From Acidobacteriota bacterium (GTDB lineage: Bacteria > Acidobacteriota > Terriglobia > Bryobacterales > UBA6623): a stretch of DNA of 55,740 nucleotides. The translations under genes and the position numbers were made by a program. Under the pieces are notes generated by a model. That model searched no databases and was not told where the DNA came from. It saw nothing but the letters and a program-made list of their open reading frames with translations. The stretch lies in assembly GCA_027624045.1 (NCBI GenBank), contig JAQBUE010000009.1:1-55740 (forward strand), in the 5' to 3' direction. The stretch's first letter is position 1, and every line of letters starts with the position of its first letter. Shown here piece after piece: positions 8-55,683 of this stretch.

Positions 8-1174
8 CTATTTCGTCCCCGGCCTCGACCTACCGCATTTCAGGATCATTCTTGGATTGGAAAATGCTAGTGGACCCGGCAACTTGTTGCGGCCGCGAAA
101 GTGACGAACGAAGACAACGACCGCTCCACGCATGATGACGCGTCGATCCCGACCCGGCGGGCAGTAGCCCGCCTGGCACGGCATGCCGTGCGGCACAAGA
201 GAGTTGGGCGCATGTGGGTTCGGTAGACCGGCAGGGCGGCCCTGTAAGGGCGGTGTGCCCAACCCGTCGCTGGCGCTCTGGGCTCGGTGGCCGCGCTTTG
301 GGATCGTCTGCATGGGCGAAGAATGGTGGGAAGCGGCGGGCAGTGGGTCGAGTGGAAACCGGCGGGGGCGGGCTAGGCACGGTTCAACCTGGGAAATAGA
401 GTTCGCCGCCGATCTCAGAAACGGCGTGTCCAACTTGTGTTGTGCTGCTGCCTCCCTCGACTCCCCGCATTGGGGCTTGTGTTCAAGCCAATGCACGCCT
501 TGTGAGTCGAGGCGCACGATATCGATGGGCGGTCCGACTTCCGAAGTATTCAACTTGATCTCGTTTTCAATGATTCGCCGAATCGCCGCTTCGGGATCCT
601 GATCGAAGCTGACAGCGTTCTTTTTCACGAACGCTTCGACGAACGTTCCGACCGCCACATACTCATTCAGTTCAAGCAGATTGGGCGCCCCTCCGAGCAC
701 GTTGTCCTCTGTCAGCCAGAAGCTCAACAACACCCCCTGCGCGCCACGTGGGGAAGTCGTTGCGACAACAGTCTGTAAAATATACTTCCCCGGCTCAGTA
801 AGTCGCTCATACATGGCCGGATCATTCTTTCTCACGGATTCGGCCGCACGGGGCAAGCCGTACTTCAGATTCGCAACATAGACACCAATAAAGTCACTGA
901 GATTTTGAGCCTCCCGAGCGGCCCCAACAAATAGACTTGACACGTCCCATCCCACTCCCCTGGAGTAGGCCAGTCCAGATGCTGCCTGCACAAAGTTGCC
1001 GCTGCGCTGGATCTTGCAAACCAGGCGGGCAGATGCACGATCAGTTCCTGAGAGTGTCTCCTTGCTATCGGCACCTATGAAGACAACACCATTGGAGGCG
1101 TGAGCGACAAGGGTGGTCAGGCCCCAGCAGTGCTGCGCGACGAGCAGTACAAGAAACAGGAGGCGCGTTTTCAC
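8..1174 (-). CDS. Secreted proteasome-like (Ntn-hydrolase fold) protein; C-terminal ~140 aa low-complexity, possibly not native
   Basis: Likely GTG start at 1174 (MKTRLLFLVLLVAQHCWG signal peptide) overlapping upstream stop; TTLVAHASNGVVFIGADSKET resembles the N-terminus of proteasome beta/HslV. Confidence 0.6.
   Translation of the reverse strand: MKTRLLFLVLLVAQHCWGLTTLVAHASNGVVFIGADSKETLSGTDRASARLVCKIQRSGNFVQAASGLAYSRGVGWDVSSLFVGAAREAQNLSDFIGVYVANLKYGLPRAAESVRKNDPAMYERLTEPGKYILQTVVATTSPRGAQGVLLSFWLTEDNVLGGAPNLLELNEYVAVGTFVEAFVKKNAVSFDQDPEAAIRRIIENEIKLNTSEVGPPIDIVRLDSQGVHWLEHKPQCGESREAAAQHKLDTPFLRSAANSISQVEPCLARPRRFPLDPLPAASHHSSPMQTIPKRGHRAQSASDGLGTPPLQGRPAGLPNPHAPNSLVPHGMPCQAGYCPPGRDRRVIMRGAVVVFVRHFRGRNKLPGPLAFSNPRMILKCGRSRPGTK
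156..191. repeat. Two adjacent palindromes: GGCGGGC-agta-GCCCGCC and GCACGGCATGCCGTGC
   Basis: Perfect 7-bp-arm hairpin at 156-173 and perfect 16-bp palindrome at 176-191, read directly. Confidence 0.7.
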
Positions 1175-1814: not shown

Positions 1815-2160
1815 GGGGAAAATGGGACAGGCACAATTTTGACAAGGTGAAGCGCGTCGTGGCAAGCTATCGATCTGCCGCGCATTGCTCGCGTGATGGC
1901 GGTCGGCGCACCGCAGCACGTCACGCAGCGGAGGAACAACCGCCAACGGGTCTTCTGTTCCGACAGCCAGCGACGCAGCTATCTGGCATGACTCGCCGAA
2001 CAGGCTGCCCGTTATGAGCTTCGCATTTGGGGCTATTGCCTGATGCCGAATCACGTCCATGCGGTGGTCGTGCCAGAGCGATGGCTAGGGGCTTTGGGCG
2101 TGGCCACAACGCTTACAGTCGCTACTTCAATAGCGTTCGACTCCCCCAGCCCAATCCCCA
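1815..2160 (+). pseudogene. Degenerate REP-associated tyrosine transposase (RAYT, IS200-like Y1 transposase) remnant
   Basis: Fragments YELRIWGYCLMPNHVHAVVVPER and, in another frame, FGRGHNAYSRYFN match the RAYT core; frame interruptions; preceded by AAAATGGGACAGGCACAATTTTGACAAGG. Confidence 0.8.
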
Positions 2161-2280
2161 TCAAATCGACGGACTATCCACAAAGGCACCGGAGGAGACA
2201 CGTACCGAAGGATGCGATCAACTCCCGGTTTGCGCCCGTGATACCATTGTCCGCTCGCGCCTTGCAATGAGCTGACACCG

Positions 2281-48879: not shown

Positions 48880-50928
48880 ATGGCCGCCCAGAACCCTATC
48901 CCGTTACCAACGATCGACAAGCTGAACGCCGCTGTTCCGTTGGCGATCATGCTGACGGTGCTCATGATGGTACTGCCGGTCCCGCCGATCTTACTCGACC
49001 TGCTCATCACCGTCAACATTACGCTTTCGGTGGTCACTCTTGTCACGACGATGTACCTGAAGCGGCCGGTGGATTTTAGTGTCTATCCGTCGCTGCTTCT
49101 GCTGTTAACGATTCTGCGATTGTCACTCAATATTTCGAGTACCCGGCTGATACTGCTCGGCGGACACGAGGGTACCCAAGCGGCCGGTGAAGTCATCGAG
49201 TCGTTCGGAAACTTCGTCGTTGGCGGGAACTTCATCATCGGTATCGTCATCTTCATCCTGCTAATCGCGATTCAGTACATCGTGATCAACCATGGCGCGG
49301 TCCGCATTTCCGAAGTGACGGCGCGCTTCACTCTCGACGCGCTCCCGGGCAAGCAGATGAGCATTGACTCGGACCTGAACGCCGGGCTGATCGATGAAAC
49401 CGAAGCGCGGCAAAGGAGAGACGACGTCAGCCGCGAGGCGGAGTTCTACGGAGCGATGGACGGAGCTGTACGCTTCACGCAGCGCGACGCCATCGCCAGC
49501 ATCATCATTACGGCTGTCAACATCGTCGCGGGCATTCTGATCGGCACCCTGCAACACGGCATGGGGATCGCCCAAGCGCTCGAAAGCTATACGGTTCTGA
49601 CGGTGGGGGATGGCCTTGTGACGGTAATTCCCGCTTTGCTGATCTCCGTATCCGGCGGCATTCTGACGACGCGCGCCGCCGGCGACGCTCAACTCGGGAC
49701 CGACTTCGGTCAACAGCTCTTCTCGCAGCCCCAGCCGTTGCTGATCGCGTCAGGCCTATTGACCGGCATGGCCGTGATACCAGGCTTACCGACGCTACCG
49801 TTTCTTGTGATGGCGGCAGGGGTTGGCGGACTCGGCTGGAACCTGCGGAAGAAAGCCCTCGAACCGCCGCCCCTCGCTCCCAGCACGCTGCCGGCCGAGC
49901 AGGATCACGTCGAGAGTCTGCTGCGCGTCGAACCCCTGGCAATCGAAGTCGGACTCGGTCTGGTGAAGCTGGTCGATACGCAGCAAGGCGGCACACTGCT
50001 CAAGCGCATCGCCGGCGTCCGTAAGCAACTGGCCGGCGACCTTGGATTCGTACTTCCACCGGTGCGCGTCACCGATAACCTCTCACTCAAATCACGGGAA
50101 TACGTCGTGCTGCTGAAAGGGGCGGAGATTGCGCGCTTCGAACTCGAGCCCGGGGCCGAGCTGGCGATCAACCCCGGCCACGCGCAAGGAAAACTCGCGG
50201 GCGCGGCCTGCCGCGAACCCGCCTTCGGCCTGCCTGCTTTGTGGATCCAGCCCGAAGAGGTTGATAAAGCGCGTGTCATGGGCTACACGGTGGTCGACGC
50301 GGCGAACGTTGTCGCGACGCACTTAACGGAACTGATCCGCACTTACGCGCACGAGCTGTTTACGCGCCAGGAAACCAACAAGCATCTGGATCGAATCCGC
50401 GAGGAGAACCCGAAACTGATCGAGGATCTTGTGCCGAAACTCGTTGCTTCCTCAACCGTGCAGCGTGTTTTTCAGAATCTGCTGCGTGAACGCGTTTCGA
50501 TTCGCGATGGCGTCACGATTCTCGAATCACTCGCCGAAGCCGCTGGAGCGACGAAGAATCCCACGCTGTTGAGCGAGTTCGTACGGCAGGGTTTGGCACG
50601 CACGGTCGTCAGGCCTTATCTGAATGAGCGCGGCGAGTTGCCGACGTTCTTTATGGACCCAGCCCTCGAACAAACCATTCAAAGCGGTGTTGAGCACACC
50701 GAGGTGACGACCCGGCTGGCGTTGACTCCCAAGACTCTGACGGAGATTATCGAGAGGATCAAGAAAGCGGTCGGTTCGTTGCAAGGGCCGACGGTGCTGA
50801 TGTGCTCCTCGGCGGTGCGCTTCGCCGTCAGGCAGATCGTGGAAAGTGAACTTCCGCTGCTGGCCGTTCTCTCTCACGGCGAAGTGCCGGCCCACCTCAA
50901 GGTCGTCTCATTGGGGCGCGTGCAATGA
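48880..50928 (+). CDS. flhA: Flagellar export protein FlhA
   Basis: DFSVYPSLLLLLTILRLSLNISSTRLIL; ARFTLDALPGKQMSIDSDLNAGLIDETEARQRRDDVSREAEFYGAMDGAVRF. Confidence 0.97.
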   Translation: MAAQNPIPLPTIDKLNAAVPLAIMLTVLMMVLPVPPILLDLLITVNITLSVVTLVTTMYLKRPVDFSVYPSLLLLLTILRLSLNISSTRLILLGGHEGTQAAGEVIESFGNFVVGGNFIIGIVIFILLIAIQYIVINHGAVRISEVTARFTLDALPGKQMSIDSDLNAGLIDETEARQRRDDVSREAEFYGAMDGAVRFTQRDAIASIIITAVNIVAGILIGTLQHGMGIAQALESYTVLTVGDGLVTVIPALLISVSGGILTTRAAGDAQLGTDFGQQLFSQPQPLLIASGLLTGMAVIPGLPTLPFLVMAAGVGGLGWNLRKKALEPPPLAPSTLPAEQDHVESLLRVEPLAIEVGLGLVKLVDTQQGGTLLKRIAGVRKQLAGDLGFVLPPVRVTDNLSLKSREYVVLLKGAEIARFELEPGAELAINPGHAQGKLAGAACREPAFGLPALWIQPEEVDKARVMGYTVVDAANVVATHLTELIRTYAHELFTRQETNKHLDRIREENPKLIEDLVPKLVASSTVQRVFQNLLRERVSIRDGVTILESLAEAAGATKNPTLLSEFVRQGLARTVVRPYLNERGELPTFFMDPALEQTIQSGVEHTEVTTRLALTPKTLTEIIERIKKAVGSLQGPTVLMCSSAVRFAVRQIVESELPLLAVLSHGEVPAHLKVVSLGRVQ

Positions 50929-51110
50929 GTCCGCTGGCGACCTCGGGCAGCGGCTGTGAACAAAGTGGGTACTGTACCAAGCGCCGTCATCGTTACTTCC
51001 GCGGTTCCAGTAGACAGATATGGCGCGCCGCCTCTGTCCCCGAGTTTTTCACCGCCTCGCAAACGCGCGGGTCCCGGCCCGCGGATCTCGCACGCCGAGG
51101 CCTGAAGTAA
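50925..51110 (+). CDS. Candidate small basic protein (61 aa), first copy of a duplicated element
   Basis: ATGA overlap with flhA stop; shares CTKRRxRxF with ORF at 55471 and about 70% nucleotide identity over a 59-bp core (hand alignment). Confidence 0.35.
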   Translation: MSPLATSGSGCEQSGYCTKRRHRYFRGSSRQIWRAASVPEFFTASQTRGSRPADLARRGLK

Positions 51111-51141: not shown

Positions 51142-52662
51142 ATGAAACTCCGGAGCTACCACACAGAGACGGTCGAAGCGGCGATCCGCATGGCGGCGAT
51201 CGAGCTGGGGGATGAAGCGATCTTCCTGGGCTCGAAGAAGGCGCCAGACGACGGTTCCTACGAAGTCACGTTCGCCGTCGTGGAAGAGCAAACAAAGTCG
51301 GATCAGCCTACGAGCCCTAGCGCACCGGCGGGGGCCGCGGCCCAGGCTAACGACCCCGGGCTGAAAGCCAGACAGGGTCCGGTGGCCGCGCGTCCCGATC
51401 AGGGCCCGATTCACTGGCGGCAGTTCGTACCGGTCCTTGAAGATACCCCGCCGCAGCCGGATGCGGCCGTCTCAGCCGTTCCCGACTCCTCCACGGCGGC
51501 AGCGGCGCGGCAGGTGGCGTCCCCCGGTGGCATAGCGGAGGCGAAGACATTCGGGCTTCCGGCGGAGCAAAGGCCGACGCCCGCTCCCGGCGGCTCGCCA
51601 GTCGACGATTTCGGCCGTCAACCCGTGGTCTCCCAGCTGTCGGATCGAGAATCCCGCCTGGCGGGGTCTCAGCTGCGGCGCTTGCCGTCGGCACAGGAAC
51701 GCTTCCAGAGGGAAGAGCGACTTGTCGAGTCAATGGCCGAGTTGACGCGGTCCCTGCGAGATATCCAGGAGTGGCTCCTGCGGCAGCGCGGGGTAAACGA
51801 CCGGTGGTTGCTCGCGGACCAGTTGCCCGTGGAGCACGAGTTGCTCGATGATCCGCTGTGTGCGGCCATTTACACCCGCTTGATGCAACAGGGTGTGGAG
51901 GACCAGCTGGCTGCTCAGATACTACGCGGCATTGCCTCCCGCGATGAACAGCGCCCCGGCGTCGATGAAGGGGAAGCGGTTTTGGAGGAGCGTCTCGGGT
52001 TCCTTTGTGAGAAGGCCGGCGCGCCCGGCAAGCGTGGTACGGATGTTGACATTGTTGCCTTGGTCGGTCCGGCCGAAAGCGGCAAGACTTCCGCGTTGGC
52101 GAAGCTCGCCATCCGCTATGGGCTCAGCCGGGGGATCAAGGTGCACTTTGTGGGTGCTGATCCTCTGCGCGTCGGAATCGCGGAATCTCTTGAGGCCTAC
52201 GCCCGTTTACTCGACGCGCCCCTGACGCAAGTGACGGATTGTGAGAAGCTACGCGCTGCGGTGGGGCACATCGCCGACGCGCACGGCGCCGACAGTCCCG
52301 TCCTGATCCTGATTGATACGCCGGGCTACGGCGTGGCGGATTGGCCGTCGGCCGAGAGGCTTGCCGGGGCGCTGCTTGAAACTCCCCAGATCGATACCCA
52401 CTTGGCTGTGAGTTTCGCCACCAAGCCGCTCGACTTGCGCCGCATGATTGAGCGTTATCGGATCTTTCGGCCGCGCAAGCTCTTGTTTACGAAGCTGGAT
52501 GAGACCGAAACGTATGGTTCCGCCGTGAACGAGGCGGCCCGGACCAAGCTGCCACTTTCATTCTTCGCAAGCGGCCCCAGCGTGCCGGAGGACCTACTGG
52601 AAGTGACACCGTCACTGCTGGCCCGGCTTCTGTGGCGGCGCGGCGGCAGCGTAGCGGCATAG
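51142..52662 (+). CDS. flhF: SRP-family GTPase FlhF
   Basis: MKLRSYHTETVEAAIRMAAIELGDEAIFLGSKK; VDIVALVGPAESGKTSALAKLAIRYGLSRGIKVHFVGADPLRVGIAESLEAYARLL. Confidence 0.92.
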   Translation: MKLRSYHTETVEAAIRMAAIELGDEAIFLGSKKAPDDGSYEVTFAVVEEQTKSDQPTSPSAPAGAAAQANDPGLKARQGPVAARPDQGPIHWRQFVPVLEDTPPQPDAAVSAVPDSSTAAAARQVASPGGIAEAKTFGLPAEQRPTPAPGGSPVDDFGRQPVVSQLSDRESRLAGSQLRRLPSAQERFQREERLVESMAELTRSLRDIQEWLLRQRGVNDRWLLADQLPVEHELLDDPLCAAIYTRLMQQGVEDQLAAQILRGIASRDEQRPGVDEGEAVLEERLGFLCEKAGAPGKRGTDVDIVALVGPAESGKTSALAKLAIRYGLSRGIKVHFVGADPLRVGIAESLEAYARLLDAPLTQVTDCEKLRAAVGHIADAHGADSPVLILIDTPGYGVADWPSAERLAGALLETPQIDTHLAVSFATKPLDLRRMIERYRIFRPRKLLFTKLDETETYGSAVNEAARTKLPLSFFASGPSVPEDLLEVTPSLLARLLWRRGGSVAA

Positions 52663-54402: not shown

Positions 54403-54608
54403 CCGGCTTTTTCGACCACCTGACGCTCGAAGCACGTCATGCGCCCGCCGTTGCTTCGCCGGGGTTGCTCGCCGCGTTAGTGTCAGGTACGCCCCAGGAT
54501 CACAGCGCCCAGTCCCTCACCGCTCCCGCGCCTCGTACCGGCAGGCCTTTCAAAAACATCGCCTTGCCACGTGATAAGAAGAGACCGCATGGGGCGGGCG
54601 GCTACTGA
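54396..54608 (+). CDS. Candidate 70-aa small protein between fliM and the second fliN-like gene
   Basis: GTG start overlapping fliM stop region, TGATG stop/start junction with next gene: MVAGFFDHLTLEARHAPAVASPGLLAALVSGTPQDHSAQSLTAPAPRTGRPFKNIALPRDKKRPHGAGGY. Confidence 0.5.
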   Translation: MVAGFFDHLTLEARHAPAVASPGLLAALVSGTPQDHSAQSLTAPAPRTGRPFKNIALPRDKKRPHGAGGY

Positions 54609-55474
54609 TGAGCGCGACCTGGACCGATCAACGGCTTTCGAACTGGTTCGTTTCCGCGCTTGCCGATCAGCTCACCCAGGCGTTGCGCGAGGGACCCGGC
54701 GCAAGCAAGTTCGGTTCGGCGGAGCTGGTTCCCGGCGAACCTCGCGACGATGTTTGGAAGGCTTGGACCGATCCGGTGTGGTACGCGGTGCAGGCGGAGA
54801 TCAAGCAAGGCGCCACCCTATTCATCGGCTGCGCCCGGGACACGGCGCTACAACTAGGCGGCGCTGAACCGGGAGACGAATCCGGCACCGCGGCTACCGC
54901 TCTCACTGCATACGAGCAGCTTTTGAACGAGGCGGTTACTGTCGTTGATGCCGTCGTAGAGCACAAAACGGGGAAGCCCGCCCAGTTCCACGCTTTTCAT
55001 TCGGACGGTCATCCCAGCTTTGCCAGCCTCGGCCTCGAGTACCGCTTCCATCTCGGCGAAGCCACGCATCTGTTGGCCCTGGCGCCGAGCCCCGCCCTGC
55101 TTGACAGCGTCATCCTCGCCAAGCTGGCCGGTCTTGGCGAGTTGAAAATCGAGGGCGCCGGCGCGATGGGGACCGGTCACCTGGCCAACCAAAGTGAGTT
55201 GAGCCCCGCAGCCGCCGAAAACCTGCGGTTGCTCATGGATGTCGACCTAGACCTGTCGATCAGCTTTGGCAAGACACGCCTGCTCCTTAACGACGTCCTG
55301 AAGCTAGCTTCCGGGGCCGTTGTGGAATTGAACCGCTCGGCGAATGACGCAGTCGACGTGCTTGTCAATAACAGCATCGTTGCCCGCGGCGAAGTCGTCG
55401 TCATTGACGGCAATTATGGAGTTCGAGTGACCGAAGTCGTTAGTCAGACCGCCCTCATGAGGTCGGTTATGTGA
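54608..55474 (+). CDS. FliY/FliN-type protein: novel N-terminal region with C-terminal SpoA domain
   Basis: C-terminus DLDLSISFGKTRLLLNDVLKLASGAVVELNRSANDAVDVLVNNSIVARGEVVVIDGNYGVRVTEVVS. Confidence 0.9.
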   Translation: MSATWTDQRLSNWFVSALADQLTQALREGPGASKFGSAELVPGEPRDDVWKAWTDPVWYAVQAEIKQGATLFIGCARDTALQLGGAEPGDESGTAATALTAYEQLLNEAVTVVDAVVEHKTGKPAQFHAFHSDGHPSFASLGLEYRFHLGEATHLLALAPSPALLDSVILAKLAGLGELKIEGAGAMGTGHLANQSELSPAAAENLRLLMDVDLDLSISFGKTRLLLNDVLKLASGAVVELNRSANDAVDVLVNNSIVARGEVVVIDGNYGVRVTEVVSQTALMRSVM

Positions 55475-55683
55475 GTGCCCGCGGCAGCAGCCGTGAGAGC
55501 AATCGGGGCTGCACCAAGCGCCGTGATCGTCACTTCTCTCGTTCGGCCAATCTGCTACGGCGCGGCGCGCAGTCACGCCGATCTTTTCACGGCCCGCCGC
55601 GAGCGGCCGGCCTTGCGCCGCGCGATAACAGAAGGGGGAAAGGCAGTGTTCGAAACTGTATTTATCCCGCATTTCCAATTTGA
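55471..55683 (+). CDS. Candidate small basic protein (70 aa), second copy of the duplicated element
   Basis: GTGA overlap with preceding stop; homologous to 50925-51110. Confidence 0.35.
   Translation: MSARGSSRESNRGCTKRRDRHFSRSANLLRRGAQSRRSFHGPPRAAGLAPRDNRRGKGSVRNCIYPAFPI

Follow-up and report, generated by a model that had tools for sequence, protein, structure and literature searches.

In a bacterial MAG of the phylum Acidobacteriota (5.52 Mb in 342 contigs), the flagellar genes flhA and flhF are separated by 213 nt, and part of the sequence in this gap recurs 3' of a fliN-like gene on the same contig. What is this sequence, and does it belong to the flagellar operon? A preliminary description made from the sequence had left three options open, namely a small protein, a structured RNA or attenuator, and a dispersed intergenic repeat. 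We investigated the two copies, here called A and B, within the window, that is, the whole of contig C45 (55,740 nt), and then in the remainder of the genome and in related genomes. Only the third option stood: we are highly confident that A and B are decayed copies of a mobile repeat that is dispersed through the genome and has no flagellar function.

A dispersed palindromic repeat family

The match itself is secure. Between positions 50941-50999 and 55478-55536, the ungapped comparison yields 43 identities of 59, exactly the figure that had been counted by hand, with 33 of 59 for the next-best ungapped 59-mer on either strand of the window; the local alignment score of A against B is 56, whereas 2000 dinucleotide shuffles average 19 and never exceed 36. 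The two sequences are not, however, the duplicated pair they had been taken for. With copy A as the query, about 20 further places were found in its own genome, and the best of these, on contig C79 (77% identity, E 2e-12), is closer to A than B is (E 6e-4). Searches with copy B and with a consensus of the best-kept copies returned largely the same set, and a family model built from 22 copies, which themselves match by construction, detected about 29 distinct places in the genome at E < 1e-6, A and B among them, bringing the genome-wide copy number to roughly 30. The coordinates are collected in Table 1.

Table 1. Copies A and B, their neighbours and putative target-site duplications in the window, and inverted repeats around RAYT-like genes at other loci of the genome.
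Feature	Position	Strand	Evidence
flhA (FHIPEP family), upstream neighbour of copy A	48880..50928	+	PF00771, E 3e-247
61-aa open frame, judged a chance frame, not a gene	50925..51110	+	frame unconserved in family; no Pfam match
Left 3-bp direct repeat GCA, putative target-site duplication of copy A	50947..50949	.	flank comparison
Copy A, 109-bp palindromic repeat, diverged, between flhA and flhF	50950..51058	+	family model, 88.3 bits, E 1e-22
Right 3-bp direct repeat GCA, putative target-site duplication of copy A	51059..51061	.	flank comparison
flhF-like gene (SRP54-type GTPase), downstream neighbour of copy A	51142..52662	+	PF00448, E 1e-16
fliN-like gene (FliMN_C), upstream neighbour of copy B	54608..55474	+	PF01052, E 1e-22
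Copy B, more diverged, 3' of the FliN-like gene	55487..55596	+	family model, 72.2 bits, E 1e-17
Inverted repeats bounding RAYT-like gene	L081 45-62 / 761-778		
Inverted repeats bounding RAYT-like gene	L082 1435-1460 / 2157-2182		
Inverted repeats bounding RAYT-like gene	L086 1302-1344 / 1969-2011		

The best-kept copies form 109-bp palindromes that are nearly perfect (young copies, GGGGCTGTGAAAAAATGGGGACTGTACCAAGCGCCG…CGGCGCGCCGTGGACTGTCCCCGATTTTTTCACAGCCCC), and their consensus, to which copy A is 74% identical over consensus positions 3-107, folds as a single long hairpin (-57.8 kcal/mol, z -7.6). The inverted ends GGGGCTGTG...CACAGCCCC are exact in the copies on contigs C180 and C285 and recur in the best copies, but are degenerate in others; in the majority of copies, one end or both are degenerate and flanking repeats are missing. 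Several copies, L051 and L054 among them, keep the inner arms only, and the exact moving unit is therefore uncertain. A short form on contig C135 looks like the product of an internal deletion between repeated CGCCG words. In our reading of the alignment, there appear to be two subtypes of inner sequence, with A and B grouping with the copies on C79, C132 and C165.

The neighbours of the copies across the genome include genes for a mannose-1-phosphate guanylyltransferase-like protein (NTP_transferase/ManC), a TrpB-like PALP enzyme, alanyl-tRNA synthetase (alaS), TsaD and TatC. Because these genes are unrelated, the family shows no flagellar association, and the link to flagella that the preliminary description implied comes down to chance; numerous scattered copies beside non-flagellar genes were indeed the outcome that it had associated with a generic repeat. 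About 10 copies lie within 25 nt past the stop of a neighbouring gene, an approximate count given that simple ORF calling is rough in GC-rich DNA. A position just past stop codons is usual for extragenic repeats, so the placement of A and B after flhA and the fliN-like gene needs no special reason, and their adjacency to flagellar genes is incidental.

Coding and RNA readings of the two copies

One rival reading posits that both places encode a small protein (61-70 aa) whose translation is coupled to the upstream gene, with ATGA and GTGA overlaps between its start and the upstream stop. Both frames do begin on the stop of the upstream flagellar gene, the ATG at 50925 overlapping the flhA stop (50926-50928) and opening a 61-aa frame as originally described, and both contain CTKRR-R-F. 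Yet the residues common to the two frames correspond to the most conserved DNA of the repeat, and the similarity begins 21 and 12 nt past the respective stops, not at the start codons, such that the element as defined by the family does not lie exactly at the flhA stop as had been proposed. In many full-length copies, a TGA interrupts the CTKRR frame close to where the element begins; compared with these copies, A and B carry one extra base, and the family alignment reveals no conserved frame in the 109-bp element. Mismatches between A and B are distributed 8/4/4 over the codon positions, an excess at the first position rather than the third. Moreover, the 61-aa frame has no Pfam match, frames of 61-70 aa are common in the window, and none of the 68 flhA-flhF loci from relatives contains an orthologous frame at the junction, where the gap is usually too short to hold one. 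We regard a protein at these positions as extremely unlikely.

Scarcely more probable, and still very unlikely, is a structured RNA, attenuator or regulatory leader acting on flhF and on the genes 3' of the fliN-like gene. The strong hairpin of the young consensus and the location of copy A in a gap between genes of the same direction would suit such a role, but the copies in question fold weakly, A at the level of shuffled sequences (z -0.09) and B near it (z -1.8). No Rfam match was found at E<=1, and neither a terminator-like nor a promoter-like site was seen. Both-sided change occurs in 2 of the 9 consensus pairs, with an unfavourable covariation term (+0.23), and there is no comparable insert in the flhA-flhF gaps of relatives.

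These relatives are Bryobacterales/Solibacter-type Acidobacteria, which makes the host an uncultured member of the same group. They have a median flhA-flhF gap of 13 nt (68 loci, start codons assigned by a simple rule), and the gap is 4 nt in the nearest relative, whose flhA is 70% identical. The repeat is absent from all 68 loci; in the MAG, 112 of the 213 nt are the element plus one duplication. Separately, we observed that in seven Bryobacterales relatives the flhA-flhF gap includes the pattern CTACAG...(C/A)CGATA with sigma-28-like spacing, which resembles a FliA promoter and is a possible promoter for flhF in those relatives; the pattern occurs nowhere in the window.

Distribution among related genomes

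A strict nucleotide search did not find the repeat in 60 relatives, and an exact pattern scan of genome contigs for its core had no hits. The family model, applied to 150 genomes of the order, identified one and two weak copies, respectively, in the two congeners and no copy in the 15 other genomes of the family; four further genomes of the order gave weak matches. This distribution points to an expansion of the repeat family in this lineage, because the congeners hold few and weak copies and the 15 other genomes of the family none. Genome G083 (loci L237 and L244), which belongs to another genus of the order, is matched at a shorter palindrome that shares the GGGGACTGTCCC core. A search for the end motif in 257 genomes of the order produced matches in two other genomes only, G169 and G098. 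In G169 (loci L246 and L249), this motif led to two related but different palindromes. The related palindromes of the other genera (G083 and G169), some of which are clustered, read AAAAATGGGGACTGTCCC...GGACTGTCCCCATTTTT and GGGGCTGTGAAAAAATTGGGACAG.... In G098, one contig has the motif at each of its ends, within a longer repeat starting further out (CCCTCCCTTAC...), and we set this case aside as probably an unrelated IS. Viral contigs and plasmids lack the end motif.

Probable insertion and mobilisation, and comparison with known repeats

Exact 3-bp repeats flank three copies, those on C180 (TCA/TCA) and C285 (TGA/TGA), and copy A (GCA/GCA); none is visible at copy B when the flanks of its family-defined ends are compared. 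Such flanking repeats occur in 3 of 23 copies versus 0.52 expected under flank permutation (p 0.008), and in three of the four copies with at most two mismatches at each end. They are putatively the pattern left by insertion with a 3-bp staggered cut, on the evidence of three copies of 3 bp each. Several IS families, subgroups of IS5 for example, have DDE transposases that produce duplications of this length.

The family has several of the features by which MITEs are recognised: it is short, carries no transposase gene, and is represented by dispersed copies with defined ends and terminal inverted repeats. The best reading is a lineage-specific MITE family, or else TIRYT-type TIR repeats such as those described from Acidobacteria. 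Under the MITE reading, a non-autonomous palindromic element of about 109 bp would have spread in this lineage by transposition in trans, through a transposase that recognised the inverted ends GGGGCTGTGAAAAAATGGGGAC... and duplicated 3 bp of the target upon insertion. Copies would survive mostly between genes, often just past stops, because insertions there do little harm, and subsequent drift would have left A and B as old, decayed copies that have lost most of their pairing. Neither has a detectable function in the flagellar operon.

The identity of the mobilising enzyme is the point on which the alternatives diverge. No inverted pair of these ends 0.8-3 kb apart, as expected of an autonomous element, was found in an arm search of the MAG's own sequence with up to 3 mismatches, and the end search across 257 genomes of the order made none evident either; MAG assemblies frequently lack IS copies. 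Possible, if less than even in our estimation, is that the family consists of TIR/REP-type dimers spread by a RAYT-like HUH tyrosine transposase, rather than a DDE-type MITE, in which case it would still be mobile and without flagellar function. In Acidobacteria, the TIRYTs form the most sharply defined group, their TIRs share the motif GGGGWSAS, and TIRs form dimers and repeated families (Di Nocera et al. 2013, PMC3733652). The right arm of the repeat described here, read in reverse (GGGGACAGTCC), fits this motif, but the left arm (GGGGACTG) does not. The genome includes nine Y1_Tnp (PF01797) matches, some of which lie between inverted repeats that are perfect or nearly so but differ in sequence from those described here (AAGGGGTCAGGACTCTTT at L081, GGGACAGGCACCTAAACTCT at L082), and the shorter related palindrome in G083 likewise accords with a TIRYT-type origin. 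Against it, the arms of our family are found at none of the nine Y1_Tnp loci, with only chance-length matches near those genes, although a copy bearing them may have been lost from the MAG, and HUH enzymes are not expected to duplicate 3 bp of their target. On balance, we lean slightly towards a DDE-type over a RAYT/TIRYT-type enzyme.

Several further observations concern RAYT-like genes in this genome. Three of them, with long near-perfect inverted repeats that differ from the sequence of this family (Table 1), resemble TIRtron-like units (cf. PMC3733652), and the window itself contains, at 1917-2084 (+), what is left of a RAYT-like (Y1_Tnp) transposase, interrupted by an internal TGA. We also considered and rejected a candidate RAYT bearing the ends of the family: contigs C278 and C264 share their first 66 bases (L078 1-66 = L084 1-66), C264 bears a Y1_Tnp gene, and the arm GGGGCTGTTAAAAAATGGGGACTG follows directly on C278, but the sequences diverge there, as at an assembly break in another repeat. 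The shared start is probably another multi-copy element at an assembly break, and possibly a lead to the mobilising element. It is conceivable, albeit improbable, that the repeats represent an undescribed long palindromic miniature family of Acidobacteria, with an enzyme that makes 3-bp duplications and an arm sharing the RAYT/TIRYT GGGGACAG motif; if so, such a family would connect TIR repeats with DDE-type MITEs.

These findings explain the odd 213-nt gap in the flagellar operon, warn against calling a small ORF or riboregulator between flhA and flhF, and, for an uncultured acidobacterial family, add a repeat family that is specific to one lineage and has a plausible target-site duplication of 3 bp; their significance extends little beyond annotation.

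Compared with REP, REPIN and BIME elements, the copies are similarly extragenic palindromes often located just past stop codons, but they measure 109 bp rather than units of 20-40 bp, number about 30, and show no GTAG/CGTC tag at the element ends in the family alignment. Like the TIRYT or RAYT-like TIR families of Acidobacteria (PMC3733652), they are palindromic dimers with the GGGGACAG motif in one arm, in a phylum known for such repeats and a genome with RAYT-like genes, whereas they differ in that no Y1_Tnp gene of the assembly is flanked by these arms and in their apparent 3-bp target duplications. Unlike prokaryotic MITEs, such as the QMITE families of Coxiella burnetii (review PMC10969869), they form a near-complete palindrome instead of short TIRs around an internal core, and have no identified autonomous parent IS. 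With those same MITEs, they share short, non-coding sequences with inverted ends, tens of dispersed intergenic copies in every state of decay, and short direct repeats bordering intact copies. The repeat constitutes a new family within a known kind of element, and its copies in the window are decayed.
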